Shown here in pieces: positions 1-25,430 of a DNA stretch of 25,430 nt. The position numbers and the translations under genes were made by a program. Source of the DNA: a virus; IMG/VR virus record IMGVR_UViG_3300047562_003832, positions 1-25,430 of that record, one strand, 5' to 3'. Every line of letters begins with the position of its first letter. Position 1 is the stretch's first letter. Below the pieces are notes generated by a model, which was not told where the DNA came from, searched no databases, and saw only the letters and a program-made list of their open reading frames with translations.

Positions 1-3000
1 CATCTACGCTTGTTCCAGATACAGTTCTTAACAATGATGAAACTGATGTATTTTCTGGAGTTAGTACGTTAAAATATGGTGCAATTGATGAAAATTGAAT
101 ATTTTGTGATGCTTTACAATTTGATCCACCAACTATTCTTTCATCAATAAAACTTAACTGATTATCACCAAAAGATTTATCACTCAAGTATGTTCTATCA
201 AATTCTAAATGGTACTTATCAATTCCTCTAAGAGACTTGAGGGTTGAATTTGATGGTAAACTGTGTTGCTTATTAATTCTGGAAAGCGAAACTCCATTCA
301 ATTCATATTTGTAAAGTAAATCTCCAACATTATGAGAGATATTTGGAGATCCAAATCTAGATCTTTGTCCAATGGTTAGAGATTGGGAACCAACATCAAT
401 GTATGAAATAACTTCATTGTTAATTAATACATATCCCGGATTGCTTGCGTTAACAGGTTTACCCTCAAAAGATGTAAAGTTCGATGTACTAGCTACTGAT
501 ATGGACAATGAATTTGAAACAATATTAGCAGTAATTGGTTCGGGAACAGTATCTGGAAAAACATTTGAAATAACTACAATATTATTATTTGATTGCATAC
601 CGTGATTATATTGAGTTACTTCAAATATATTTCCCGAATAAATGTAATTCGGGACATATGTTGGTTTAATTACTTGAGTTGATGCCATAGATACTAATGT
701 TGACCCATTATAATATGATATTGGTTGCCCCAAACTAAACTCAAGTCCTTGAACATTAGTGAGATACAAAGTATCAATATTTTGAATGGATGAAACTGTC
801 AATCTTGCACCTCTTCCCCTTACTACTGAACTTGTAGTAATTCCCAAAACATCACCAACAATATATCCAGATCCACTAAAAGCTATTGATACGTTAGATA
901 TTTTATTATTTGTTACAGTAATGTTGGCCGTTGCACTCATACCATAACCAGTAATACTATAAAGTGGAACAGATGTAAATGTTCCATTTGAATATCCAGT
1001 TCCAACATTTGAAGTTGTAATTGCGACTATATTTCCACCGACATTTTCGATATATCCAAATGCATTTCCTTCATAAACTTTTGTTCCTGGAGTTAAAATA
1101 TTTCCGACAACTGAAATCTGGGAGGTTGTAATACCTACATTTAATTTTCTTGGTAAAGTTTTGATTGGATTGTTTGTTAATTTTGGTATATTTAAATCAT
1201 CAATATATGTTGTGCTTCCTACAGAAATATTGGGATTGTGGAAATATGCAGTTCCATTAGAAGAAGTAAAATTGCATTTATATAAAACAAAAGTTAAATC
1301 TTCTGATATAGAAGAATTCCAAATAGAACCATTTTGAGGTTTATATAAGTTTCCTCCAATATAATTGTTAGAATAGATTACTTGTTCAGCATTTGGTAAA
1401 TTTTGAGTAGATATAGTTGGTTGATTAGTTTGTGCTGTCCAAACTTTATAATTACTTGATGAAGAACAAATTAAAGAAATTGCATATTGTTTATTTGGTT
1501 CAAGATAAATTGGTGATGAAAATTTGACATTTGTTGCCACTTGCCCCGTGCTAGATGTAGTAATTCCGGAAGGATAAAGTTCAGCACGTGCATAATCTTG
1601 AACTAAATTACGTTTTGGTGTGCCCCCAATATCTGTTTCTCTAATTTCAACAAATATTTTTTCTGTAGAATCTTTATCAGCAAAATATAAATCTACTGAT
1701 GATAAGAACATACCATCATTATCAGTTCTAAAAGTTTGTGACAAAGGATCAGTTCTTAAAGCACTTAAAGGTAAAGCAGCAGATGGTCTTCTTAAAGAAA
1801 TACTTTCTGTGTAGGTTTGAGAATTTACGATACCATTTGCATAAAATGTATTTTGAGTAAATGAAACTGTGGTGGAAGGTGAATTAGTAAAACTGGATGA
1901 TAATTTAAAAGTTTTTGTGCCCACCCCAAAAGAAACTGATGGTGCTGGAGATTGAAATGAATTTCTTATAAAGAAACATCCGATTAAATCTCCAACATTA
2001 TCAGTAATTAAAGATTGCGTAGAAACAGTTGCTTCCGCCCCAGAAGTTTTTCCAATTAAAATTGCACCTTGTGGTAAATAACCAAAAAATCTACCTGAAG
2101 CATCATCTGCTAGAGAATAAGTATCTATATTTAAAGTAGTCGATGCTGAAGAATATGCAGGTAGACTTAATGAAGTATTGTATGGATTTTGTGTATATGA
2201 TACTATTGGAGTAATAGAATTATAAATTCCTTTTTTATGTGTTGGAGTGGCTAATCTAAAACTGGCAACTTTAATTCCAGCATAGTACCCATCAACTGTT
2301 TCACCAACCTGGAACGAAGAAGAACCAGAACTCATTGATATTTGTAATAATTTTGGTATAAAATCAATACTTGAATTTCCATCGAAGAATGAATAATACT
2401 GTGTATTTGGTTGCAACCCAGTAGCTTCAAATTGAATGTTTTTTGATTTAAATTTATCTGATGAATTATTATCTAATAAAGTTTCATTTACAAATGAATT
2501 ATTCCATTCGCCCTGCGTTTTTATTATAATTCCATTTTCAGAATTAATTGATCTTACCCAAGTATCTGAAGATGGAGTTAATTTAACATATCCATTATAG
2601 TTTGAAACTCCTGCAGGATTTACATTTTGATAAGCAGTAGCATAAGTTTGTCCAATTCCTGCCGAAATTTCTGTATAGTTTAATGTTAACAAATCTCCTG
2701 TTTTTTTAATATTATTATCTAGAGGAATAAAATTAGAAGAAAAGTCTAAAGAATCAATATTAGCACTTTCATTAGTACCAATCTCAGACTTTAATGAATA
2801 AAATGAAATGTTGGCGTTCAATTCTTCATTTTTCTTATTTATTACGCATTTTGTATCTAAATCTTTCAAATTTATAAAATTATTAGTTTTAAAATTATCA
2901 ACAAAAAATCCAGATTTAAATCTATTAACTCCATCAGAATCTAAAACTTGTAATGCTTGGGTGTTTAATTCTAATAAAGAAAGAGATGATGCTATTTCTA

Positions 3001-6000
3001 AATTTTCAATTCTATTTTCTAAAGATTCAATGTCTCTCATTGTATATCTTTTATTATTTGTAAGTCTAACTACACTATCTGTTGGACTATACAAATATGC
3101 GGGAAATTCAATTATCGCAATATCCATAGAATCATCAATCGAAGATGGAGCCTTAGGATTTAAAGAAGAAACTCCTTTTATTAAGTTAAATGAACCACTC
3201 TTACTTAAAACTATTTTATCTATTCTAGGAAGATAAAATGAGTATCCAATTGTAGAACTTTCATTTGGAGATAATACCAAAGTTGGATTATTACCTGCAG
3301 ATGAAAATGAACGACTTGCAAAATCAAATGGTGATAAAGAAGTAGAAGTGAAAGGAGAAACTCTTGGTCTAAAATCAAGAATATCTGATGCTCTAGTATT
3401 ATTTGATAAAATTGGTATGTCTTTTTGATATCTTTCAGAATCGTATGAATTTACAGTGTAAACATCTCCATTATCACTAGATGGTACATTATAATAATCG
3501 TAAATTACTAGAAGTTTTCTCGCAGGGGAAGTATTCGGATTTTTTCTAACTATTCTTGAATAATCATAATATTGTTCTCTTTGTCCTTTATCAAGAGTAT
3601 ATTCTTGTGTTCTATCAATATAAGAACCAACATCAACTGATTGAATTGGTGCAGAAATATTTGATTCTTTAAATACTACTGTTTCTCCATTAATAAATCT
3701 GTTTGAATTTAAATAAACAAATTCAATTTTTGTAGAAGTATTTCTTGTAACTATTTGTGCAACCGCACCACTAGTCTGACCTACAATCTGTTCACCCAAA
3801 ATAGAATTGGTATTTAAATTTAGCCCATTTTGAAAATTTAATCCATCTAAAATTGGCGATGATATATTAACTGACTCATAAACTGCAATAATATTTGCTA
3901 CATCTGGAACATTTAGAGAAATTTCTTCATCTTCAACTCTTAATCCGTAAAAAGGACTTGTTGAAAGACCAGAAATTGTTGTAGAAATTCCAGAAATGCA
4001 TTTATTAATTTCAAGTTTTTGACTTCTTACATATATTTTTTGTTTATTGCGTATTGAATTTTTCTTAACAGTAGAATTAATGGTAACGTTAGATTGATTT
4101 GGAGTTAATCCACTAAAAGTAATAAAAGTTCCAGAACTATCTAAAGAAAATTTATCGTAAGTCAATGGTTCTACAGTTCCATTGGAATAAAATATAGAAT
4201 ATCTTTCAGTATCGAAAGTTTCAAAATATGCACTTGTAATCCCAACATCAGATAAACTCAATGATAAACTTCCGACAGAATTGGTAGATTTTCCTGTAGT
4301 TTGTCTGGTAACTTTTATATCAGAATTAGTAAAATTAACATCAGATATATTTTTATTGTTTAATTTTGCATATAAAAATGCATTTTCTTCATTTTGAATA
4401 GAAGGAATTCCTAATGAAAATGTTACATTAGTTAAAGTATTTGGAACTCCACCATCACAAATACCTGCTACTGTTGAAACTCCAGAAAGAGTGATTGAAA
4501 GTCCATCTGATGAAACCTGTGAAATTCTGTTAAATGTTTCTGTACTAAACCCAGATCTTTGATATTTAATAATTGTGTTAGTTGAAATTCCTGAAAAATT
4601 TCTTCCCGCACAAGTAGCAATTCCAGATGAGCTAATAGTCAAAATATCATTTGAATTAAAGTTAGGTGCTAATCTACTTGTTAAAAATGTATCAGCAGCA
4701 AAATCTGTTGATAATCCAATAGAGCTTGAATCTTGATATACTGATTTTATATCAGATATACTATATGCTCTGATATTTTCTATTGTTCTTGAAATTATTG
4801 TTGAACCATTTATTAAAATTTTCTCTCCAGGACTAAATGAACCAGAAGTTTGAGTAATAGTTATTGTTTCGTTTGTAGGAGAAGAAACAACGTATCCAGA
4901 AGCTCCACTACTCAATCCTTTAATATACGTAGATATGGGACATTCAATAGAACTTAAAGATTGATTTAATGTTAACTTAGTATAAGTTTGAATATCAAAT
5001 AAGTATAAATCCCAAGTTGTAGCACTATTAGAATATGGTGTATTACTTAGATTAAATGAATATACTCTTGCTTTTCCAATTTCTGTTCCACTTCCTGCAA
5101 TAGTTGAATTTTTTCTTTGATCATATAATCCTATAGTATGATTATTATCAATGCCAATCACCGGGGATCCAGAAATATTATTAATTTTTAATAAGTTCCC
5201 CATTTCAAATGGAACAGATGATGTAGATAATGAAAATTTATCTCTTGGCTTTTCTACATCTAAGATAGTAGTTTCATTTTTTTCTATATCAAATCCTTTT
5301 ACGTATGCTTTTCCTGGAGAAATTTTTACCGATAACAGATTTGATGATGGAATATTATTCTGGTCAGTTTTTTGTGTTTCTAGATATATTCCATCGGACG
5401 AAATTTGATTATTTAAAGAGTCTTTTACCTCAATTGTAAATGGTGTAAGTGCATAATCTCCAGATTCATCATATGTTCTTTTTGCAATATACTCTTTTAT
5501 TAATGAATAAGTATTGCTATCTTGTATTTTTTTAATTACTCCATTAGATATTCTTAATATTTCAATAAAATTTTTATCATCTAAATCTGTAAGTGCTTTT
5601 TTGGATAAAAATGTTGAAATTTTTAATCTGTCTGCTCCTGGAGCTGAAAAGTTTGAAAATCCTTTAGCATTATCAAATAAATCTTGGTTTTCTGCCGATG
5701 CAAATTCTATAGATTCTAAAATATTCAAACCAATTCTATAAGAAGGGGTATTAGTATATTGGTCTAATATTAAAGTATCTTCATTTACTTTTACAAATGT
5801 TCCTCTTATAAAATAAACACCTTCAGTAATTGTCACTGCAGATCCCGTTGCTATTGCATTGGAGTTTATTAATGATGCAATTGTTTGCCCAGAATTTATA
5901 GTAGTATTTCCATATTTAAATGTATCAAGTGTTATTAAAGTTTCACCATCTGTAAATGGGTTAATATTATAATTTGCATCTGAATTTAAATACTTAACAT

Positions 6001-7976: not shown

Positions 7977-10900
7977 TTATTTAAGTTCCTTACTTAATCC
8001 GCCAGTGTTTCTTAATCCATAACCTCTCCTAAGTATTTGTGGATATGTTGTAAGGCCACTATTTACAGTGTATCCACTTACATTTATAGATACTGGATTA
8101 TTAGATCTACTTATTCCGCTCAATCTTCCCCAAGAAAATCGTCCACAAAAATTTCCATTAGTTGAAATGCCAGAAATATTTGATGTTGATAAAACATTGC
8201 AAGTTATTACTCCAACTAAGTTATCTCTTGAAATTTGATTAATTATAAAAATATTATCAAAAAATGATGTTCCTATTCCAACAACATCATTATCAGAAGA
8301 GTTAATTGAAATAACTCCATTTCCAATATTTGTTTGTGATACAAGTATTGGATATCCGACAACAAGAGAATCTATATTTGTTAATGAATCATATTGAAGA
8401 TTAAATTGTAATGCTAAAGGATTTGATCCAGTTCCAGTAGATGTTGTTATTCCAGTTATTATTCCACTAAAACCCTCAGCAAATTTAATTTGGGGTATTA
8501 ATTCTCTAGTAAACTCCGGAGGAGTGCATATAATTTGTGGTGGATTTGTGACAGTATATCCACTTCCAGGATTAGTTATTGATATGGAAGATACTGTTCC
8601 TGCTGCAGAAACTGAGGCCGTGGCAGTTGCTGTACTACCAATTCCTATAGGATTTGCAATTTTCAGAGTTAGTATAGAACCGGGTGTGTATCCATTTCCT
8701 CCGGTCAATATTTCGATAGATTCTATTGTAGATGCTGCACTTACATTAGCTGTAAATCCTGCAGAAATTATTTCATTTGATTCTATTATTAAACCTTCAA
8801 ATTGTTGAATTACTGTTGATGTATTTGGATCATTTTCCTCATATTTAAAAAATTGTGCATCATCTACAAAAATTTCCCCATCTGTAGGAGAAACATTACT
8901 TATAATCTTTGCAGATGGAACTACAAGAGTTTCAATAGAATCTCTTGATTTAAATTCAAAATTCTGATTAATTATCAAATCTCTTTTTTGTTTTTCCCAA
9001 TGTATAGGTCTGAAAATATTTTCATCTACCCCATCACCTAAGTATACCCCAGTTTCTAAGACATCTGCACTTTGGATTAAAGAAACAATACGATTTGTTT
9101 GAGGTACTGTAGAAGGTATAAAATTATGCTTGTCTAATCTTAAAGTGTCTCCTGGTTTTACCGTTTCATTTACATTTATTAAAGAACTATCAACATCTCT
9201 TGTTCCTCTGTAGAAAAATATTGCAATATTATCTTCTGGCTTTGGAGGTTCTCTAAATCTAAACGTGGTTCCACCATTAAAAGTATAAGAAACACCAGGT
9301 TCCTGCATAACCCCATTAAGAAATATTAACAATAGTGTATTAAAATCAATTAAATTTGATTCTATATTACCCTTATCTTTTTCAAAACTCAATAATTCAT
9401 TATTTCTAAAAAGTGGAAATCTAGTTCTAAAACCATCTTGGAAATTTTTAATACTGTCAATGTAATCAAGTTCACCCAATTGCCAACATGCAAAAGAATC
9501 TACAAATATTTCCTCAACAGTAAATACTAATTTTTCTATAGGAGATGATAATCTTGCATCAGTAACCAATCCAACGACTTCAAATTTATCTCCACGCATA
9601 AAAGCGTATCCTGGTTTTGTAATATTAAAAGATTTAACCTCAAAAAAACTATTCCCAACTCCAGTTACAGAACTTTCTCCAACATTAACGGTTACAGAAA
9701 GTCCAATTCCAGTTTCCGTTGTATTTCCAACAGAAAGTCTAGAAACACCAATTATAGAAAGATTTTCATATGAAGGACTATCAATCTTAAACATTGGGTT
9801 AGTGTATCCACTACCTCCATTCAATATATTGAATGATAGCGTTCCACCAGCACCTACAGTAGCAGTTATAACAGCTCCACTTCCTGTTGAATCAGTTACA
9901 CCTACTGAAATAGTTCCTCCACGATATCCAGATCCTACTATATCAGTAGATCCAGTGCCAACAGATATAATACTACCTGCTCCATTAGTAACGGCAGTTA
10001 CTGAAGCACCAACCAACGGAGCATACCCCAAACCTCCTGTCGATCCAAGTGAGATTATAATACCTCCACGTGGAACTTGATTTTGGTTAACATCAGAATC
10101 AACAATTATTACATCATCACTATTCGGTCTAGTAATGGATGTAAAAGTTATAGTTGTTATTCCTGAATTTTCTGATGATGTTAATACGTAATTATTTCCT
10201 GCATTATTTTCAGTATCAGGAGTTTGAAATACATCGTTAATAAACACTAATCCACTTCCAGGTTCAACTCCAGAAGTATTTTGACCTTGAACACTCAAAT
10301 TAAATGTTCTTCCTATTCCAGTAAACTGTGATGATACATCATCGTATAATTTATTAAATTCATAGTCTCTACGTAAAAACACTCTACCATTAAATGTAGA
10401 TTTTGGAAGAGGTAGTCCACTTTGATCTAATCTATTATTATTTCCTTTTCCGTCAGGAGCTTCTGTAAAGTGAATTTTATTTCCAACAATATTAAATGAA
10501 CCTCTATAAATTCTGGCCTCAGTTCCATCTAAATGAGACGTAGCAGATGTTCCGACAAATCCCCTATTAACTTCAACAATAGGAATGGTTCCAACACCCG
10601 TAACAGGTCCAGTATTTGTTGTTCCAAATCCTACATTAATAACTCTAACATATTCATCATCTATTTTAATTAAATCCTTAGGTGCTATAGAAGATATTCC
10701 AGAAAGTCCAAAAAAAGTTATTCCTGCACCTATTGATCCACCATTGTATTGTATAGTATGATTTACTGGAGTCCATATCAATGGATATTGATTTACACCA
10801 TTAACTGTAATCAAGCATTTTTCTAACTTCTTTTTCATTTCAAGCTTGTGTAAATTTCCAGATCCATTGTTTGTAAAGGTAAATCCTATCCCACTCCCAC

Positions 10901-13900
10901 CACTTACGCCAGTAAGTTTAAAATTATCATTATCTATTCTAATTGCATAAACTCTCGTTGGTGCAATATCTGTTATAATTCCAGTGATAAAATTCGTTCT
11001 GATTGTATTCCCAATAGAAACTTCAGATACTTCTAAAGAGGTTTTTAATTGATCGGAATAGAAAATAATGTCAGTTCCCCCATCAATGACTTCAGTCGAT
11101 ATTATAGAATTTGTTCCAATAGAAATAATTGTTCCTATTCCAATATTATTTTCAGAAAAAATTCCAGACCCAATTGTTAAAACACTTGTATTTGCAATTC
11201 CAGTAATAATTGAAGATCCTCCGGATACAACACTTCCAACAAAATAAGTATATGTTTCTCCAATGGAAACTATTGATGTTCCTTCAGGCAATGATGCCCC
11301 AATAATTAGATCTCCAACATTAATTCCATTTGTCGAAACAATACCGGTGATAGTGGAAAATCCAACTATAAAGTCACCAACAAAATCTCTACCACCAGAT
11401 ATGGTAGTTCCAATTCCAATTGGACTCGCATCTATACCATCAATAGTCGAATAAGGTGTGTAAATTAATTCTTCACCAGTTTGAAAAAAGTGGTTTGGAA
11501 TCGTAAATATTCCCGTAGACTTATCTAAAATATTTAAATTTTTGGGATTAAATGTTTTTTCAAAAATAGGAGTTCCTTCGTAATTTAAATCAAATTCTAA
11601 TCTATCTTTTCCAAAATTATTCAATGATCCATAAAATGCAGTAGAGAGTTCTTCAATAACATCACCATAAGTAAAACTATCTGGATTATTGAACTCATCA
11701 ACATCAAAATATATTAATTGATTAAATTCTTGAATTAAAATATTTTCAGAAGAAAACATTAAATCGGGATAAAACTTAACTATAACATTGTTCCCACTTA
11801 TTTCAGCTCCGAAAGTTCCTATTCCAGTAGTAGAGGCTGATCCAACAGATAAGAAAGGATATTGTTGAATATTAACTGTATTGTTATCGGATACAACAAG
11901 AACTTGGTGAAGCGCAACCGTGTTTCCCACTCCAACTCTAATTAAAGATTTTAAAGTAGATTCGACACCCAATTCATAAGATGCAACTGTTGTAATTCCG
12001 GTAGAAATTTGATATGATGTCTCTAGTCTGGCACTTTTTTCAGTTCCAGGATCTTGATCTTCTACTAAGTATCGATAAGTTCCTATTCCGGAAGAAGTCG
12101 AACCAAATCCAACCGTTTTTGCTTTTACAGTAATATTATTATTTGTATTATTTGTAAAATTGAGACTAAGTACATCATTAATTATACTGACTCCAAAAGT
12201 ACCAATAAATCCAAAAGATGATCCACTTATATTATTTTCAGTATCAAAACAATATTCACTAATATATCCATTATCACCATCATGATATGCTAAAATTTCA
12301 AAATAGTTCATATCTAATGTATCTTCGTTTCTTATAAAAACATTAGCATATACTGTATCTATTGAAGATAATTGAGATTTAAATATATCTGTAGTTATTC
12401 CAGCAGTCTCGAAATTTTCAGTTCTTCCACTGAGACGTAGAAATCCAATATCCTTAAAATTTTCTTCGATATTTATTAGATTTGATGAAAAATAATCTCT
12501 GTATATTTTTATATTATAATTAAAAATTAGTGGATTTATTGGGTCAAATCTTAATGCAGTATTTCCATTACTTGCAAATGTTCCACTAAGATTTCCTAAT
12601 AAAGAATCGCCAGTATAAAGATCAATTTTATTTAAGGTGTATGTATTATCATAATTATTTAAAACAACAACTTCACTGGTTTGTATATTGATTTTATTTT
12701 CATCAGTTATTTGTACCAAAAATTTTGAGAATTGATCTGTTACCGAATATTCAATTACTTCAATGAAATCATCCCTATTAAATTCTGCACTAGAAAATTT
12801 ACTACTAATATCATCTATTTGAAGAACTCTGTTTGAAATGCATTCAATATAATCTGCTAATTTTCTATTTCTAAAAAGAATAGCATCTGAAAAATTTAAA
12901 CTAGATAAGTAGTCTAAAGCTAAATCAAAATTATTAAAAGTATCTATTCTCTCTTCAGAGACAAAATCTAAAATTTGGTTTAATATTTGATCTGAACTTA
13001 TCCCAATTGATGCTCTAGATGTTATACCAACATCTGCAAAATTTTTAAATCCTGTGGGGTGAACAAGACGATTTACTGAATCTTTAACTCTATTAAAATC
13101 TAAAACTACATTATTTTTATATTTTTCTCCGGTAGTTTTAATTGAATATGATAAATTTTGATAATAATCATTATCAGGTAAAACTTGATAACTATTATTT
13201 AACTTACCACTATCATTTTTCCACCCATAAGACCTTTTTTTCGAATAATCAACATTAAAATATTTTTCAAAAGAAATATCTTTATTTACTCTAGATAGAT
13301 TTCCCGATAGTGTGCCACTTAGTAAATCATTATATGATAATCTATTTTCACCCAAAATAGTTAAATAATTTTTATTTGATGTTTGTACAACTAAATCTGA
13401 TGGTTGATTATTAATCAATAATTTTTCACCAGTAAAAAATATGCTAGGTACTCTGTCAAATATAAAAGTTGGATAATTTTTTTGATTTACAATACTAGTA
13501 AAAAATGGTTGTATTGTAATTGGAATTCCTGCATTATCAGTATAATCTCCTATGTTATATTTTAAAATGGCAGGATTAGAATTAATAAAGTCAACTACCT
13601 TAAAAAATTGATATCCATTCTCTGCAGAATTAAATCCCGTTCCTGGTGTAATAGTTACACCAAGATCACTAGTGATAGATCGTCTTTTTATACCTTCAAC
13701 AAAAATATAATCTCCTATTGCAAATGGGGGAGTAATAAACCCATTAACTGCGGGAGTGGATAATTCACATTCTACAATTCCATCCACATAACTCAAAATT
13801 CTTTCTATTGAAACACCATTACTATTATTTTCAGTAAAAATTGTATGCTCAACAGACTCTAATCCTTTTGGTTCTTCAATAACATTAACATTAACTACAG

Positions 13901-16900
13901 CACTTCCTCTTAATTTTGCCATCAAAAGCCCAGAAGAAATCTTTTCTCTAGTATTATTGTTAACTAAAGATAAAGTTGGTGGGGAGATGAAATTTTTTCC
14001 ACCATATGTAACATTAATACTTTCAATTTTATCAGAATTTTGAAGCCTTATCAATCTAGGTATATCGGCCTTTGGTTTAAGAGTTTTATCTGATGAATAC
14101 TCAAATCCTTCATTTAAAATTCTAAGGTTTTCAATTTTTCCAATACTTTTTGAATCCGCTTCAATAATAGCATTAGATCCAAAACTTAAAGTGTTTATTT
14201 TAGAAACGAAAGGTAATTTCTTATATCCAAAACCACCGGATATTAAATCAATTTTGTCAATTCCTCCCGTTGCAGTTTTAGAATTTGTAGTATACTTAAG
14301 AACATCACATTCTGATGATTTATATGAATACTTTTCAGGTACTTCATTTAAAGATATATTGAATGTTGTATTCCCCACACCAAATATATTGTATTCTCCA
14401 TTATAAGCACTATTTTGATATAAAATTTGAGAGCGATTAATAACATCAGAATCTACTGAAACTAGAGATCCTGATTTTTCTAAAGTATAAAATAAATTAA
14501 ATGGTAAATTTGCTGAAAACCCTATAGTTATTGAGGCCGAAGTTGAAACTCCAATAGTTCCAATCTTAGAAACGGAAAAAGAAGATTCATCACCAGTGGA
14601 TATAAATTCATTTTTAAATTCGGAATCATAAAAGAATTTTAAAGATAATCCCGAAAGAGATGAATCTGATACATCAAATACAACATTATTATTTTTAATT
14701 ATATTTAATTGTGGATTTATTAGACTAATTTGCTGCAATGCACCACCAGTTTCACCAATACTCACAAATCTTGGTGGAAAAGAGATAGAATTTTTATAAG
14801 TATCGCATAAGTAAAAATAATCATCATCAATCCTATGAATAAAATAACCACCAGTATCTAATCCAGATGCAATCGAATCTTCAGAATTATAAAAAACTTT
14901 TTGTCCTGTTTTTAATCCATGAGATAAAATATTAATTTTATTTGTGGTTGTATCAAGATTAGATGAACTAAATCCAATAGGATTAACTAAAATTTTATTA
15001 TATTGTGCATTATATTTAATAGTGATATTTGAAGAAGTAGTTCCAATTCCAGTTGATAATCCTGGATTTACCATTAATGAAATTTTATCACCATAACGTA
15101 AATCATGATTTGTGGAAATTGAAACCTGGCATGTAATTTTTTTTACATCGGCAGTAATCTGTTCGTATTCTGGTTCAAAGTAATAATAATTATTATCTGA
15201 ACCAGTATTGTTAAAAAATAATCCGCCAGTTGTTGTTAAACCAACATTTGTCACAATTCCAATTGTGTTTGGAGTTTTATTAATTACATAAACATATTGA
15301 CTATTTCCAGATTCTGGAAGAGTAAAAAATGATGTATCTGAAACGTTTTTAACAATCAATGATCCAGAATCATTAGGTTTCACAAATAGAACTTTTTGAT
15401 TAGTTTTAAATGGGTGATTTGGTATATAAAGACTTTGTGTTTCTACTGAAACTGAATTGGATTGATTTCCAAGTTGATAATGAATAGTGTTAAAAGTTCC
15501 TGTATCTAATCCAGAACTTACAGAAATATTTGGATTAAAATAAACTTTTTCATTTATTTTAGAATTAAAATGTGGTGTTTTTAAATCGACTAAAAACGTA
15601 TCGGTATAAAAATTTACTCTTGTACCTGAAGTATGTCCAACTGATACTCCTCTAGAAACTCTTAAAATATTTTTACTTTCAAAAATATTTAAAATAAATA
15701 AATTTTCATCCTCAATATTAAGTTCTGACCCAATGTGTATATTACTTGGAAATGGTGAAATGTAAATATCAGTTACAACTCCAATAGTTGTATTTGATGG
15801 CATCGAATAAATTAATGATGAAAATTCTGAAGAAACTCCTATTTTATGTGATCCCACTAAATTTTCAACAGAATCTGCAAGTCCACCAGAAATTTGTACG
15901 GTATCTCCATCCAAGAGATTGTGATATGGAAAAACTTTAACTTGAATTTGATCGGGAGTTTTTCTAAGTACTAAAGAATTTTCATATATTTCAGATGTTG
16001 TTAATATTCTTGTTATATTTTTACCTACAAGTGAACTTACTACTGCTGAAGCACCACTACCTTCTGTTTCAGTTTCGTCAAAAATTAAAGAATCTCCCAC
16101 AGAATATTGATTCCCAGATTCAATTACAGATAAATCTTCTATAGACCCATCAGAGACAGATTCAACTAGAGAATTTTGTTGTATTAATTTGTTTGATTCA
16201 ATGATAAAATCATTACTGGAATATTTTTCTGATACTCTATAAGGAAATGTATTTCTAACAAGATTTGAATTATTAAAATCATAATCTTGTTTTTGATTTA
16301 AATCTGCATAAAATTTTGATCTATATTTATTACCTATAAAATATGGAAATTTTGGTTCCAATTTATTTGTTGTTAAATTAGTGGAAACTCCTACAAAATA
16401 TGCATAAACGCCATTTGGAAAATCTGGTGTTTTTGAAAACCTACCATTATATTCATCTAAGTCGCCATTATTTGTATAAACATAATCTTCAACAAAAAAT
16501 CCTAAATTATATCCATCTGGACGATTAATAATATTAAAATTATTTGCTACATATCCAGTTTGTAGTATTTTTACTTGAGAATTGTCATCATCTGGATTTG
16601 AATATCCATATGGGCCATAGATTGGATTTCCATCATAAGACCATCCAATTATTTTAGAATGTTCTAATTGACCAATATCTGCAAATGATCTTCCCTCTCT
16701 ATCAGTAGAATATCCAACAATTCCATAACATAAATCTTCACCATCTTCTGTTAAAATTTCATCAGAAAATCTTTTTTCGTTATTTATCGTTAATGATCTA
16801 ACATCTAGTGTCAATGCACCATTTTTTCCATTCGGTTCAACTCTAATAGATGTATTTTTTGAGTTGTAATTAGATCCAGAATTAATTATAATAACATTTT

Positions 16901-19900
16901 GAATTCTACCATTTACAACATTTGCTCTTAACTTGGCACCTATTCCATCGCCATTAATGATTAAGTTTGGAGATGATGAGTAATTCGATCCACTATTTTG
17001 AACTTCAACTCCAACAATTTTACCATTAGTTATAATTGGTTTTAATTGTGCAGAATTTCCAGTTCTTAAATTTACTATAGGTCGTCTATGGAAGTTTAAA
17101 ATTTTAGATCCATAATCGGTTCCTGGTTCGTATAAGTAAGATCCAATAATTTCTCCTCTAAACAATGGACTAGCAGTGATTGTTCCAATTACTCCAGAAT
17201 ATTCAATTTCAAGATTTAAAGTTATTGGTGGATATTCAAATATTTGTTGACCTAATCCTGTAGATGAAAATGTAACATATTTTCCTTGATTAAAATCATC
17301 ATTTAATGGTGCTGATGTTTTAATACCAGCATTTGCAAGTCTAAACTTTGTATCATCTAATTTTATAACATAATATTGATTATTTGTTGATAATCCAGTT
17401 ATTGGTTGATCAAATGTATATCCAAATCCAACAGAAGTTCTGTAATTAATTAAATCTCCATGATTAAATCCATGATTTTGAAAACTTATTGTATTTGAAG
17501 TTGTAGATATTCCCGTTGGTTTAACTTTTAAACTTCTATTTTCATATCCAGATCCACCATCAAGAACTTGAATATCTGTTAAAATCTTTTTACCATTCAA
17601 CAATCTAAATTTATGAATACCACCAGCATTTGAAGTTGTAAACCCAACTGTGTTAATGCCAGCACTTAAATCAGATATACTATTATACAATCTAATTGAA
17701 CTTGTATTAATTACTTCAGGATAATATACTGAACCATTTATTAAAAATCTTGATTGATCAGTATTTGATTGTCTAAAAGTTCCAATTCCTAACGGAGTAT
17801 TTCCATTTGAATTATATACAATTGGAGTTCCATTTTGTAAGTTATGAAACTCTAAAAATGAGATAGTTTCCTCTTCTACATTAAGTCCACCACCCAAAGT
17901 TGAAATTTGTGCGTTAAAATTAAGTTCCCTAAATCTTTCTTCTATTATTGGCTGTAAAACAGCTCCAGAACCATTTCCTCCAGATATAGTAGCAGAAATT
18001 ACTCTTTCAATATCGACATCGTTTGGATCAACTAAAACTTCTTTTAGATTTCCTCTGATTATCAAATCTACAAGTGCAGTTGTTCCAATACTAATACTGG
18101 GATTTGATACTATAACTTTAGGAGGCGATAAAACATCATAATCAGAACCAGAATTAATAATACTTGGATTTGTAAGTGGGCCATAATAAATTTTATCGTT
18201 TGACTTATAGTTGATAATTTCAACACCATTGATTAACATACCAACTGGTCCTGGTTGAGTTTCAATTCCATCTCCAGATTGAATATTAGGACTTAAAGAT
18301 ATTTTTCTGAGTGCTTTTTTAGGAGCTAATTTTTTATTTTGTGCCTGTTCTTCTAGAGTAAATGTATGAGTAGATGTGTCTGAAGATTTTAAAAATTGGA
18401 TATAATTATTAGTTCCAATAAAAGATCTTGCGTTATATAATCTTATTTTATTTTTAATATCTTCGGTATTTGACGAGTCTAAAACTTCTACATAATAGGT
18501 TCTATTGAAAACCAACCCTTCAATAGGATTTGAAGAACCTGTATAAATTACAGCATCTCCTGTTATAAATGGAACTTCAGTTTCAAAAGAAATAATACTA
18601 TATTTTGTTGTTCCGTCAAGTGATATAATTGCACCTGAAAAAATATCATTTAAATTAGATGATGAAGTAATATCTAGAGTTTTACTTATTATTTGTTTAG
18701 TAATTGTATAGCTGGGTAACGAATTGGACGCTACATGTATAAATTTTGAATTCTCATCATATGTATTTTGAACATTAGCAGTTATCTTTGGATATTTTAA
18801 TTCAATACCTGTTGAATCTGCATAATCAATATTTTTTCTTATACTTATTTTTGTATTTTGATTAATGTCTACTATATTCTTATTTAATTCAACAATCTTA
18901 TTGTTTATTGAAGTTACAATTGCATTATTGACAATAATATCTTCAGAATTTCTGTTTAACACATTTACAGAGTCTCCTATTTTGAGACTCGACTTATCAG
19001 GCAAATCATAAAGAGTTACTATATTGTTATTAACCGTAAAGAATTCTACTTCATATCTTGAACTTGTGTTATAAATCCAAGAATTAAATACAATTTCTTT
19101 ATAACTTTTATTTGATGGATTTTTTATTTTTTCCCCAATATTTTTTACAGAAATAACATCACCAATTGACCTGAAATAAATATCATTTTGATTTTCTAGA
19201 TCTGATAATACACCTGTTATTCTAAATTCTACTTTTTTAGAAGTGTCACCATTCTCATAACCATAAATTATTTTATCAGATCGTATATCTGATCCAGAAT
19301 TAATTTCAGTATCTATACCAGTACATCCAAAAAATTGATTAATACTTTTATTAGTATATTTAATTATATTTGAACCAGATATTAAAGTTCCAAATTCACC
19401 AAAACCAATTGTAGAATCTACTGTAATAACTGAAGAATTTATGTTAACTTTTTCTATTACTTTAGTTGTTGGAGTAATTTCAAACGTTCCTTGAATTAAA
19501 CTTTTATCATCAAATCCTGCAAAAAGTTGAATTTTATAATAAGTTTTTTGATTTCTTGTTATAATTTCTACCTCTGAAACCGGTGCAGATGCAGTATTGT
19601 CACTACTATTAATAGTTTGTCCAACTAAATTATTTGGGTTATTTCCAGATATTAATTCTGCAACTATAACCTCTCTTCTAATAAACTCTGCATCAGATGG
19701 TCTAAATAAAAATTCCTTTAAATTTAAAATTGTAGGATCGACACCGTATAAAACGTTATAGAGAATACGAAAAGATTCTGATGTACCTTTTGATTGATAA
19801 AAAGTTCTTATTTCTTTAATAAAATTATTAACGTTTAATTCTGAAACAAAATCAACATTTTCAAATCCAGGAGCCAAAGATTGTTTTAATTTTTTATAAA

Positions 19901-20399
19901 ATTCTTTTAAAAATAAAGAACTTAAATTTTGAACTACTGTTCCTGTTGTATGAGTTTCAGCTTTCGATGTAGAAAACTCAAGTTCTTCAGGATTTTCAGA
20001 ACTTTTATAATTAACAATACCACTAAAACCTCTTATACATCCAGTAAAAGAATTTGTTGTAATTCCAGTATAAGTTATTATCTCATTATCAATTTTAAGT
20101 AATCCATATTGTGAAGGAAATCCCTTTGTATTACTTACATTAATCGTTGAACTGTTTATTTCAACATTAGAGGTTAATATAGAAGTTCCAGAGATTGCAT
20201 CTGGAGTTAGATTATTTAATTTTTTATACTGATCTAAATTTTCGGCAATATCTACAGGACCACCCTGAAATTCTTGCGAAATATAATATTGCTTCAGAAA
20301 CTCCACTGCTTTAGGAGTTTCTGATATAATAAATTCTGGTAATTGATTTTCAACAATTTGTTGAATTTTAACCCTAGAATCAAAACCAGCTATAATCAT
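7977..20399 (-). CDS. Giant baseplate wedge protein in the gp7 position (4140 aa), with YHYH-like domain and many beta repeats
   Basis: 4140 residues, roughly 450 kDa, between gp6 and gp8, which is where T4 has gene 7 (about 1030 aa). Two stretches resemble T4 gp7 as I recall it: residues 200-217 (FYQSKG...SFRILYNVLY) with LVGQTI at 258-263, against T4 FYSTKG...KFLFKVLY...LVGQTI; and RLVHPTGF at 2444-2451, against RFVHPVGF. Between and after them lie: a D/E-N-E-I-I-TYTG...RG module near 100-127 with related copies near 330, 1556 and 3237; H-x-x-x-x-G-x-x-V/I/L modules near 850, 979, 1492, 1764, 1825 and 2970; GSGY/GSNY repeats; and a YHYH-like domain at about 1240-1360 (GWSYDGNPIYGPYGY...LDEYNGRF...GVYAYF). 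Residues about 3330-3900 hold FLNGVMQEPG-type modules. The start is supported by GAGG 4 nt before the ATG; the gp6 stop overlaps this site. Confidence 0.8.
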   Translation of the reverse strand: MIIAGFDSRVKIQQIVENQLPEFIISETPKAVEFLKQYYISQEFQGGPVDIAENLDQYKKLNNLTPDAISGTSILTSNVEINSSTINVSNTKGFPSQYGLLKIDNEIITYTGITTNSFTGCIRGFSGIVNYKSSENPEELEFSTSKAETHTTGTVVQNLSSLFLKEFYKKLKQSLAPGFENVDFVSELNVNNFIKEIRTFYQSKGTSESFRILYNVLYGVDPTILNLKEFLFRPSDAEFIRREVIVAELISGNNPNNLVGQTINSSDNTASAPVSEVEIITRNQKTYYKIQLFAGFDDKSLIQGTFEITPTTKVIEKVNINSSVITVDSTIGFGEFGTLISGSNIIKYTNKSINQFFGCTGIDTEINSGSDIRSDKIIYGYENGDTSKKVEFRITGVLSDLENQNDIYFRSIGDVISVKNIGEKIKNPSNKSYKEIVFNSWIYNTSSRYEVEFFTVNNNIVTLYDLPDKSSLKIGDSVNVLNRNSEDIIVNNAIVTSINNKIVELNKNIVDINQNTKISIRKNIDYADSTGIELKYPKITANVQNTYDENSKFIHVASNSLPSYTITKQIISKTLDITSSSNLNDIFSGAIISLDGTTKYSIISFETEVPFITGDAVIYTGSSNPIEGLVFNRTYYVEVLDSSNTEDIKNKIRLYNARSFIGTNNYIQFLKSSDTSTHTFTLEEQAQNKKLAPKKALRKISLSPNIQSGDGIETQPGPVGMLINGVEIINYKSNDKIYYGPLTNPSIINSGSDYDVLSPPKVIVSNPSISIGTTALVDLIIRGNLKEVLVDPNDVDIERVISATISGGNGSGAVLQPIIEERFRELNFNAQISTLGGGLNVEEETISFLEFHNLQNGTPIVYNSNGNTPLGIGTFRQSNTDQSRFLINGSVYYPEVINTSSIRLYNSISDLSAGINTVGFTTSNAGGIHKFRLLNGKKILTDIQVLDGGSGYENRSLKVKPTGISTTSNTISFQNHGFNHGDLINYRTSVGFGYTFDQPITGLSTNNQYYVIKLDDTKFRLANAGIKTSAPLNDDFNQGKYVTFSSTGLGQQIFEYPPITLNLEIEYSGVIGTITASPLFRGEIIGSYLYEPGTDYGSKILNFHRRPIVNLRTGNSAQLKPIITNGKIVGVEVQNSGSNYSSSPNLIINGDGIGAKLRANVVNGRIQNVIIINSGSNYNSKNTSIRVEPNGKNGALTLDVRSLTINNEKRFSDEILTEDGEDLCYGIVGYSTDREGRSFADIGQLEHSKIIGWSYDGNPIYGPYGYSNPDDDNSQVKILQTGYVANNFNIINRPDGYNLGFFVEDYVYTNNGDLDEYNGRFSKTPDFPNGVYAYFVGVSTNLTTNKLEPKFPYFIGNKYRSKFYADLNQKQDYDFNNSNLVRNTFPYRVSEKYSSNDFIIESNKLIQQNSLVESVSDGSIEDLSVIESGNQYSVGDSLIFDETETEGSGASAVVSSLVGKNITRILTTSEIYENSLVLRKTPDQIQVKVFPYHNLLDGDTVQISGGLADSVENLVGSHKIGVSSEFSSLIYSMPSNTTIGVVTDIYISPFPSNIHIGSELNIEDENLFILNIFESKNILRVSRGVSVGHTSGTRVNFYTDTFLVDLKTPHFNSKINEKVYFNPNISVSSGLDTGTFNTIHYQLGNQSNSVSVETQSLYIPNHPFKTNQKVLFVKPNDSGSLIVKNVSDTSFFTLPESGNSQYVYVINKTPNTIGIVTNVGLTTTGGLFFNNTGSDNNYYYFEPEYEQITADVKKITCQVSISTNHDLRYGDKISLMVNPGLSTGIGTTSSNITIKYNAQYNKILVNPIGFSSSNLDTTTNKINILSHGLKTGQKVFYNSEDSIASGLDTGGYFIHRIDDDYFYLCDTYKNSISFPPRFVSIGETGGALQQISLINPQLNIIKNNNVVFDVSDSSLSGLSLKFFYDSEFKNEFISTGDESSFSVSKIGTIGVSTSASITIGFSANLPFNLFYTLEKSGSLVSVDSDVINRSQILYQNSAYNGEYNIFGVGNTTFNISLNEVPEKYSYKSSECDVLKYTTNSKTATGGIDKIDLISGGFGYKKLPFVSKINTLSFGSNAIIEADSKSIGKIENLRILNEGFEYSSDKTLKPKADIPRLIRLQNSDKIESINVTYGGKNFISPPTLSLVNNNTREKISSGLLMAKLRGSAVVNVNVIEEPKGLESVEHTIFTENNSNGVSIERILSYVDGIVECELSTPAVNGFITPPFAIGDYIFVEGIKRRSITSDLGVTITPGTGFNSAENGYQFFKVVDFINSNPAILKYNIGDYTDNAGIPITIQPFFTSIVNQKNYPTFIFDRVPSIFFTGEKLLINNQPSDLVVQTSNKNYLTILGENRLSYNDLLSGTLSGNLSRVNKDISFEKYFNVDYSKKRSYGWKNDSGKLNNSYQVLPDNDYYQNLSYSIKTTGEKYKNNVVLDFNRVKDSVNRLVHPTGFKNFADVGITSRASIGISSDQILNQILDFVSEERIDTFNNFDLALDYLSSLNFSDAILFRNRKLADYIECISNRVLQIDDISSKFSSAEFNRDDFIEVIEYSVTDQFSKFLVQITDENKINIQTSEVVVLNNYDNTYTLNKIDLYTGDSLLGNLSGTFASNGNTALRFDPINPLIFNYNIKIYRDYFSSNLINIEENFKDIGFLRLSGRTENFETAGITTDIFKSQLSSIDTVYANVFIRNEDTLDMNYFEILAYHDGDNGYISEYCFDTENNISGSSFGFIGTFGVSIINDVLSLNFTNNTNNNITVKAKTVGFGSTSSGIGTYRYLVEDQDPGTEKSARLETSYQISTGITTVASYELGVESTLKSLIRVGVGNTVALHQVLVVSDNNTVNIQQYPFLSVGSASTTGIGTFGAEISGNNVIVKFYPDLMFSSENILIQEFNQLIYFDVDEFNNPDSFTYGDVIEELSTAFYGSLNNFGKDRLEFDLNYEGTPIFEKTFNPKNLNILDKSTGIFTIPNHFFQTGEELIYTPYSTIDGIDASPIGIGTTISGGRDFVGDFIVGFSTITGIVSTNGINVGDLIIGASLPEGTSIVSIGETYTYFVGSVVSGGSSIITGIANTSVLTIGSGIFSENNIGIGTIISIGTNSIISTEVIDGGTDIIFYSDQLKTSLEVSEVSIGNTIRTNFITGIITDIAPTRVYAIRIDNDNFKLTGVSGGSGIGFTFTNNGSGNLHKLEMKKKLEKCLITVNGVNQYPLIWTPVNHTIQYNGGSIGAGITFFGLSGISSIAPKDLIKIDDEYVRVINVGFGTTNTGPVTGVGTIPIVEVNRGFVGTSATSHLDGTEARIYRGSFNIVGNKIHFTEAPDGKGNNNRLDQSGLPLPKSTFNGRVFLRRDYEFNKLYDDVSSQFTGIGRTFNLSVQGQNTSGVEPGSGLVFINDVFQTPDTENNAGNNYVLTSSENSGITTITFTSITRPNSDDVIIVDSDVNQNQVPRGGIIISLGSTGGLGYAPLVGASVTAVTNGAGSIISVGTGSTDIVGSGYRGGTISVGVTDSTGSGAVITATVGAGGTLSFNILNGGSGYTNPMFKIDSPSYENLSIIGVSRLSVGNTTETGIGLSVTVNVGESSVTGVGNSFFEVKSFNITKPGYAFMRGDKFEVVGLVTDARLSSPIEKLVFTVEEIFVDSFACWQLGELDYIDSIKNFQDGFRTRFPLFRNNELLSFEKDKGNIESNLIDFNTLLLIFLNGVMQEPGVSYTFNGGTTFRFREPPKPEDNIAIFFYRGTRDVDSSLINVNETVKPGDTLRLDKHNFIPSTVPQTNRIVSLIQSADVLETGVYLGDGVDENIFRPIHWEKQKRDLIINQNFEFKSRDSIETLVVPSAKIISNVSPTDGEIFVDDAQFFKYEENDPNTSTVIQQFEGLIIESNEIISAGFTANVSAASTIESIEILTGGNGYTPGSILTLKIANPIGIGSTATATASVSAAGTVSSISITNPGSGYTVTNPPQIICTPPEFTRELIPQIKFAEGFSGIITGITTSTGTGSNPLALQFNLQYDSLTNIDSLVVGYPILVSQTNIGNGVISINSSDNDVVGIGTSFFDNIFIINQISRDNLVGVITCNVLSTSNISGISTNGNFCGRFSWGRLSGISRSNNPVSINVSGYTVNSGLTTYPQILRRGYGLRNTGGLSKELK

Positions 20400-23016: not shown

Positions 23017-23343
23017 TTAACGTTCCACTTCTCTCAGAGAATATTGATCCGAATTGAGATATTTTAATATTTCTAAAGCGATTAGGCGGGGGTTTTTTTC
23101 TCCGCAGGTATAAACATCGACTGCGATACATCCTTCTTCAGGCCAAGTATGACATGAAACATGACTTTCTGCGAGTGTAATTACTACCGTACACCCCTGT
23201 GGAATGAAACAATGTGAAAAAGTATTTAAAATTGTCATGTTGGCACGTTTAATGCCTTTAATCATGACATTTTGAAGCGATTCTACGTCATTAATCGCCT
23301 CAAAATTTACATTATAAACTTCCAAAAGCAGGTGTGTACCCAT
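23017..23343 (-). CDS. speD: S-adenosylmethionine decarboxylase proenzyme (SpeD), phage auxiliary metabolic gene
   Basis: This pyruvoyl enzyme decarboxylates S-adenosylmethionine to the aminopropyl donor for spermidine. From the ATG at 23343 it has 108 residues. The hallmark LAESHVSCHTWPEEG is present: the proenzyme cuts itself before the serine of ESH, at residue 60, and the histidine of SCHTW (65) and the cysteine of YTCGE (80) are the catalytic pair. Their offsets from the serine (+5 and +20) equal those in the Thermotoga enzyme (Ser63, His68, Cys83). The protein ends about 20 residues earlier than bacterial SpeD (about 125-130 aa), which I believe is common in cyanophages. A TTG at 23358 would add MKRFS, and no Shine-Dalgarno distinguishes the two starts; I prefer the ATG. 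It lies 34 nt after the 152-aa gene, on the same strand. Confidence 0.92.
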   Translation of the reverse strand: MGTHLLLEVYNVNFEAINDVESLQNVMIKGIKRANMTILNTFSHCFIPQGCTVVITLAESHVSCHTWPEEGCIAVDVYTCGEKNPRLIALEILKYLNSDQYSLREVER

Positions 23344-23377
23344 TGAAAAGCGTTTCAATTCAGTTTTGCGTAAAAAA

Positions 23378-25167: not shown

Positions 25168-25223
25168 AATTTTTTTTATTTTTTAATGTATTAAATAGAT
25201 GCCTTTCGTAACACTTTGTAGAC

Positions 25224-25259
25224 TAGGGGGACCCATCAATTTTAGCTTAGGGGGGCATC
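25224..25259 (+). repeat. Imperfect direct repeat TAGGGGG...CATC
   Basis: TAGGGGGACCCATC at 25224-25237 recurs as TAGGGGGGCATC at 25248-25259, with the two copies starting 24 nt apart. The copies differ only between the G run and the CATC. They lie at the entrance to the GC-rich block. A 24-nt period equals eight codons, so both copies fall in the same plus-strand frame. Confidence 0.5.
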
Positions 25260-25271
25260 GACGCCTTACGC

Positions 25272-25294
25272 GGGCGGACCGCCCTAAGGGGCGG
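25272..25294. repeat. Overlapping inverted repeats giving two mutually exclusive hairpins
   Basis: The order is GGGCGG (25272-25277), A, CCGCCC (25279-25284), TAAG, GGGCGG (25289-25294). The middle arm can pair perfectly with either flanking arm, the right-hand hairpin having a proper 4-nt loop and the left-hand one needing to open at the tip. Such a layout can act as a structural switch, but no associated gene is visible. Confidence 0.5.
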
Positions 25295-25351
25295 CACCGG
25301 GACACTGCCAAACTGCACGAACGAACAGGGGGGGGGTCACCCCTGCTGAGA

Positions 25352-25389
25352 ACGCCACCCGCTCACAGGGCAGCGGTGGTCGGTGGCGT
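25352..25389. repeat. Nested inverted repeats with competing arms
   Basis: ACGCCACC at 25352-25359 is an exact inverted match to GGTGGCGT at 25382-25389. The same left arm, as CCACCCGCT (25355-25363), can instead pair with AGCGGTGG (25372-25379), with one bulged C. The right side contains CGGTGG twice in tandem, which is what makes the two pairings possible. Confidence 0.5.
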
Positions 25390-25430
25390 GTGCCTCAGCA
25401 TACTGGGCAGCCAGCACGGTGGCAGGCAGA

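Follow-up and report, generated by a model that had tools for sequence, protein, structure and literature searches.

The locus analyzed here raises the question of what kind of protein, 4,140 amino acids long, is found where phage T4 has its gene 7 and, if it is a gp7, where the additional residues have been accommodated. The window (the whole stretch of DNA analyzed, a virus record of 25,430 bases, probably a fragment of a genome) had been described in a first-pass annotation as encoding a gp7-like baseplate protein with its core possibly split by a very large insertion.

The giant gene and its neighbors

The giant gene is a single intact ORF on the minus strand (7977..20399), with 4,140 codons from ATG to stop and no internal stop. 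Pieces of PHROG 2885 (“baseplate wedge subunit,” 4,179 positions) match it end to end with an E value of 0, residues 4-3001 in one stretch and the C-terminal part up to model position 4177, which places it in the gp7 family of baseplate wedge genes. According to PHROG and Pfam, the order in the coding direction, with all genes on the minus strand, is gp25 (22675-22274; PHROG 261/43), gp6 (22272-20401; PHROG 219, Pfam Gp6-like_1st), the giant gene, gp8 (7945-6386; Pfam Phage-Gp8, E 1e-10, PHROG 438), the first two and the last being baseplate wedge genes as well, and a VrlC-like gene cut by the end of the window (6382-2; DUF4815, PF16075, E 5e-56). Lying between gp6 and gp8 in a wedge cluster, the gene does occupy the position of T4 gene 7, as the first-pass annotation had it. 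A VrlC gene follows gp8 in many such phages, and the gene at the position of the VrlC-like one is named VrlC or VriC in S-T4, S-SRM01, S-SCSM1, and HTVC008M; DUF4815 is a domain of unknown function. The product of gp8 is enlarged too, with 519 aa versus 334 aa in T4, and at 208-275 it contains a module of the GSGY type that matches PHROG 460. Upstream of the wedge genes there is a speD gene (S-adenosylmethionine decarboxylase, 23017-23358), and S-SRM01 has one at a similar place.

An ORF of this size might be an artefact, e.g., two genes fused by an assembly error, and the record is indeed a 25-kb contig fragment with an odd right end. There, the last 230 bases (25200-25430) have a GC content of 0.61 to 0.67 versus ca. 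0.30 elsewhere, with runs of G, possibly a chimeric or low-quality contig end; a megablast search against plasmids gave no match for it. However, 48 other complete giant genes, from 3,328 to 7,312 aa, come from other contigs and from sequenced isolates, and the window protein agrees over nearly its full length with two relatives (L213 and L215, ca. 73%). On these grounds we rejected the fusion, which we regard as hardly credible.

Comparing the lengths of the gene after gp6 across phages indicated that the giant form is not peculiar to the window genome. It was found in all 12 marine cyanomyophage references measured, i.e., S-RIM44 (3,328 aa), S-RSM4 (3,515), S-CAM9 (3,884), S-SRM01 (3,895), S-SCSM1 (4,120), S-T4 (4,749), P-SSM2 (5,195), syn9 (6,076), S-SSM5 (6,171), S-RIM8 (6,395), S-WAM1 (6,737), and P-SSM4 (7,312). 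The same gene codes for 1,032 aa in T4, 1,165 in Vibrio phage PVA8, and 1,007 in phiM19, and the gp7 of pelagi- and methylophages has ca. 900 to 1,000 aa (1,016 in HTVC008M and 896 in Melnitz-2). Among 125 complete viral-contig genes with both core modules, two size classes were found (ca. 780 to 1,030 and 3,980 to 6,040 aa), although the gap between them may partly reflect sampling, since the queries used to collect the loci came from both classes. In Synechococcus phage S-SKS1 (L005 18001-31946), the record leaves the N-terminal 7 kb of gp7 unannotated and divides the remainder among smaller CDS; this gene is interrupted or its sequence contains errors. The giant gene as such was already known, since the records of P-SSM2 and P-SSM4 name it gp7 and many others name it baseplate wedge initiator.

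Homology of both core halves to T4 gp7

The motifs that led the first-pass annotation to gp7 were found exactly where it had placed them, with FYQSKG at residues 200-205 (19785..19802, minus strand like all the features that follow), LVGQTI at 258, and RLVHPTGF at 2444-2451 (13047..13070). Their counterparts in T4 gp7 are FYSTKG at 734, LVGQTI at 781, and RFVHPVGF at 881-888. The spacing given there for T4 (within ca. 200 residues) was also right, with 147 residues in T4 versus ca. 2,240 in the giant protein. The first half of the core (residues 1-292; 19524..20399) comprises an N-terminal helical segment, the FYQSKG segment, LVGQTI, and the first half of domain V, and the second half (ca. 2339-2487; 12939..13385) contains the remainder of domain V and the YYQ..SYSIK...RLVHPTGF module.

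A phmmer search of the PDB with the single window protein found nothing, and profiles were needed. Using hhalign, a T4-family profile was compared with a profile of the window protein and 32 giant relatives; T4 724-813 corresponded to residues 190-292 (E 8.8e-8), and the match of the second half, T4 865-923 on 2419-2487, was weak alone (P 0.01, with a best P of 0.48 in the reversed control). HMMs of the two segments made without Straboviridae (only cyano-, pelagi-, and rhizophage sequences) recovered T4 gp7 with 27.9 bits (E 3.1e-8) and 13.8 bits (E 6e-4, at T4 864-909), and both matched, in the expected positions, every one of the six gp7 proteins from Straboviridae that were searched. Shuffled Straboviridae gp7 sequences reached only 4.9 and 5.8 bits, so far below the T4 scores that the homology of the motifs goes beyond chance. 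A profile of residues 1-300 and relatives, searched against the whole PDB, retrieved two distinct sequences up to an E value of 10, both of them gp7 (7.1e-4 and 4.8e-3). The profile of the compact family retrieved a single one within the same limit, again gp7 (weak, E 0.33), with the helical domain and the first and second segments in order. PHROG 26741 bridges both proteins in register, with T4 664-759 on its positions 24-116 and window residues 193-375 on 84-266. The proposed homology of both segments, in order, is thus borne out by profile-profile, HMM, and PDB-wide profile searches.

Pfam gave two families in the giant protein, a YHYH domain (see below) and PF23786 (Baseplate_wedge, 284 positions, no insert). 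The latter matched the second half only (2402-2456) with 21.3 bits, under the gathering cut-off of 27 bits, and we take it as support rather than as membership. In HTVC008M, Melnitz-2, P-SSM4, and syn9, PF23786 matched both halves of one ORF and no other ORF. The T4-type models Gp7_helical, Gp7_5th, and Gp7_6th remained unmatched, the giant gp7s showed no counterpart of T4 domain VI, and the hhalign profile comparison gave no significant alignment to residues 1-640 of T4 gp7. Judging from sequence, the window protein belongs to gp7 without being of the T4 type.

It has been stated that gp7 is absent from cyano- and pelagimyophages and is substituted by VrlC (PMC7029224), and Sullivan et al. 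placed it among the non-cyanophage core genes (PMC3037559). Were gp7 truly missing, the giant protein would be an unrelated fiber sharing short motifs with it by chance. We consider this highly improbable and rejected the replacement by VrlC, which is contradicted by the ordered homology of the two halves to gp7; besides, the VrlC-like protein of the window has DUF4815 and no gp7 domain listed by Pfam. We also looked for a second gp7 by searching ten complete phage genomes in six frames with the T4 gp7 profile (PHROG 964). There was one match in T4 and a single one, the gene at the gp7 position, in each of P-SSM2, S-SCSM1, P-SSM4, syn9, phiM19, and Melnitz-2, with no match in the genomes of S-T4, S-SRM01, and HTVC008M. 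Hence, this profile detected no second gp7 in the six complete non-T4 genomes with a match, the window itself being a 25-kb fragment.

Location and content of the insertion

The insertion extends over ca. 2,050 residues, from ca. 293 to 2338 (13386..19523), with boundaries good to tens of residues, as derived from the alignments with HTVC008M and T4. Residues 5-285 of HTVC008M gp7 align on 9-282 of the window protein (E 9.8e-20) and 695-821 on 2339-2469 (E 2.7e-15), leaving the two core halves separated by a very large insertion, as had been proposed. In Pelagibacter phage HTVC008M and Methylophilales phage Melnitz-2, the homology covers the N-terminal 280 residues and the second core half (E ca. 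1e-19 and 3e-15), and an insert is found at the same place, but of only ca. 330 to 460 residues, followed by a short C-terminal tail. Their gp7 proteins are annotated only as putative structural or hypothetical proteins.

The position of the insert relative to the T4 domains was examined with an AlphaFold model of HTVC008M gp7. The model is poor overall (mean pLDDT 52.7), with a mostly low-scoring helical core (<50) and a poor C terminus, and the pieces at ca. 240-320 and 690-750 are fair, so that the three-dimensional comparison with T4 concerns the domain V pieces. In a structural comparison by VIA with 995 chains, gp7 ranked first and second (9f4a_A0 and, from T4, 5iv5_BJ, both with Z 9.3 over ca. 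90 residues at 2.8 to 2.9 Å), model residues 238..756 falling on T4 762..851, which corresponds to Pfam domain V (766-861). Other rows included another gp7 chain (5hx2_A, Z 7.3), an EF-Tu-type structure (the best of its type, 7.0), and a T4 sheath domain (8.3), the last one on another part of the model. A Foldseek search with the same model had no gp7 among the matches listed. From the aligned range and the number of residues, domain V is, in this model, rebuilt from two pieces ca. 400 residues apart, and since the two halves reconstitute the T4 domain, the insert sits inside it. By homology with this shorter relative, the insert of the window protein is likewise placed within domain V. In comparison with T4 gp7 (5IV5, 5HX2), therefore, the gene order is the same, the core stretches 724-813 and 865-923 match in order, and the fold of domain V appears to be recovered in the modeled compact relative. 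The window protein has in addition these ca. 2,050 residues inside domain V and a tail of ca. 1,650, and no counterpart was detected for T4 1-640 or domain VI.

The gap between the two core modules is 105 to 106 residues in Straboviridae, 332 to 764 in three compact relatives (Melnitz-2, 332; HTVC008M, 464; phiM19, 764), and 1,531 to 2,753 in the cyanophages (S-RIM44, 1,534; P-SSM4, 2,753), with 2,107 in the window. Beyond the second module, the tail has 8 aa in phiM19 and as many as 3,690 in P-SSM4. In this Sinorhizobium phage (phiM19, L017 5058-8081), gp7 thus ends right past the second module, so nearly all its extra mass is located between the core halves.

Across the related giants, the insert is colinear, with ca. 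40 to 55% identity, and within the clade of the window the identity is fairly even, ca. 32 to 60% per 60-residue block. Extra length inside this otherwise conserved insert was seen as one insertion of 209 residues near residues 1021-1080, and three relatives (L227, L228, and L229) carry a block of ca. 210 residues near residues 1026-1041. The gp7 proteins of Prochlorococcus phage P-SSM2 and of S-SRM01 (PHROG 2885) share with the window protein the same position and the split core, and they align over nearly their full length with ca. 40 to 54% identity in the aligned pieces. P-SSM2 also has the same YHYH domain.

The insertion had been described as consisting of beta repeats, and this description held only in part. 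The AlphaFold model of residues 1080-2270 (mean pLDDT 70.8) is almost all beta, and short G-S-G-Y modules recur, but self-BLAST detected no internal sequence repeat. Modules of this GSGY type appear at several places in the giant protein, the one at 3875-3952 matching PHROG 460, and a comparable module of HTVC008M is similar in structure to gp18, the sheath protein of T4 (Z 8.3, with 28% identity across 76 residues). Residues 1522-1600 (15600..15836) form, in the VIA-align comparison, a small beta-barrel domain like those of siphophage baseplate and tail-tip proteins (JBD30 baseplate protein 8rk3_b, Z 11.8, 1.4 Å over 75 residues; Chi tail-tip protein 8vjh_A, Z 9.2). The YHYH domain (PF14240, E 1.5e-23) is found at residues 1245-1345 (16365..16667), and in a comparative study it was predicted to be a tail-associated zinc-dependent hydrolase (PMC7824862). 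Its signature reads YAYF at 1332-1335 and is YAY[FYH] in 28 of 28 aligned giants, the first His being always replaced by Ala, while the His of HSxIIGW is conserved throughout these 28 sequences. Such a degenerate signature makes hydrolase activity doubtful, and the predicted function may have been lost in the giant gp7 lineage. PDB profile searches with residues 1080-2270 and 2340-3000 found nothing, and other parts gave weak matches only (endosialidase, E 0.61; pilin, E 4.4), which we do not take as evidence of fold. Foldseek against BFVD returned the same gp7 family first.

C-terminal extension and possible role

Residues 2488-4140 (7980..12938) make up a C-terminal extension of ca. 1,650 residues; counted from the end of the second motif there are 1,689, in agreement with the ca. 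1,700 initially estimated. Within the clade of the window, extra length is found mainly at 3001-3150, 3420-3660, and 3900-3960. The main length-variable site is at ca. 3420-3660 (9420..10142), where as many as 655 residues are added at a single point in relatives and P-SSM2 carries ca. 1,070. A second site (3001-3150; 10950..11399) is for the most part missing in over half of the relatives. Compared with P-SSM2, the window protein is shorter at the main C-terminal site and has the block 3001-3150 as an extra. The variable-site insertions of P-SSM2, S-T4, L227, and L221 had no Pfam family over the cut-off, and therefore, no receptor-binding domain was identified at these sites.

A giant gp7 is a real component of the virion, since the S-SSM5 giant gene belongs to cluster T4-GC969 and the S-SM1 member of this cluster was detected by mass spectrometry in purified virions (PMC3037559). 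In T4, gp7 is a monomer present in six copies per tail, and gp7 and gp8 together make up the platform for gp6 (PMC3004832); the (gp6)2-gp7 complex resembles the (TssF)2-TssG wedge of the T6SS (PMC6300606). We are quite confident in reading the window protein as the gp7 of its phage, with a split core and with insert and tail bearing peripheral or host-contact modules. It would pair with the gp6 dimer of every baseplate wedge, the two core pieces (ca. 1-292 and 2339-2487) presumably meeting in the assembled wedge as in T4, in which case the insert would leave and return at a loop of domain V. The insert and the C-terminal tail most likely carry peripheral baseplate or host-contact modules in cis, and would replace what T4 does with its N-terminal 640 residues and with separate proteins. 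The conserved insert would then be a fixed scaffold, and what differs from phage to phage would be the C-terminal sites of variable length.

There is a possible parallel in Vibrio phage XM1, in which the tail spikes attach to the 242-aa gp7 counterpart (gp17) at one internal loop and at the C terminus (PMC10457771). The giant gp7s have grown at sites of these same two kinds, although the equivalence of the loops is drawn by analogy. In XM1 the spikes are separate proteins, whereas in the giant gp7 the extra modules belong to the same chain.

A purely structural role for insert and tail, in which they would thicken the baseplate or add a second layer to it and so brace the wedges, without any part in host contact, has a substantial chance of being correct, if somewhat short of even. 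A colinear insert conserved across relatives is what is expected of a scaffold, the domains recognized look like structural parts of tails (the T4 sheath protein gp18 and siphophage tail-tip barrels), and for T4-like phages possessing VrlC a baseplate of two layers has been proposed (PMC7029224 and PMC6630229). On the other hand, the length of the C-terminal sites differs widely from one relative to another, and some modules show a weak resemblance to parts of tailspikes (8ck1, E 0.0075; endosialidase 4hiz). A more specific version of the reading with host-contact modules would have marine cyanomyophages make a large share of their baseplate periphery in cis. The wedge core of all six giant gp7 chains would be opened at domain V, and the chains would form an additional layer, or a set of arms, covalently attached and ending in host-contact modules that can be swapped at the C terminus; they would thereby do work for which T4 has separate proteins such as gp10, gp11, and gp12. 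We put this forward tentatively, as the less probable outcome.

We found no description of an interrupted gp7 core in the open-access literature searched. The results correct the published statement that cyano- and pelagimyophages are devoid of gp7 and tie to one wedge protein several clusters that go by different names (T4-GC 107, 397, and 969, “virion structural protein,” and “hypothetical protein”). They also show at which point the core of a widespread contractile tail can accommodate additional residues by the thousand. For viruses that are very abundant in the ocean, the end that faces the host becomes in this way a concrete target, with the domain V insert as a putative scaffold and the C-terminal variable sites as candidate determinants of host range.
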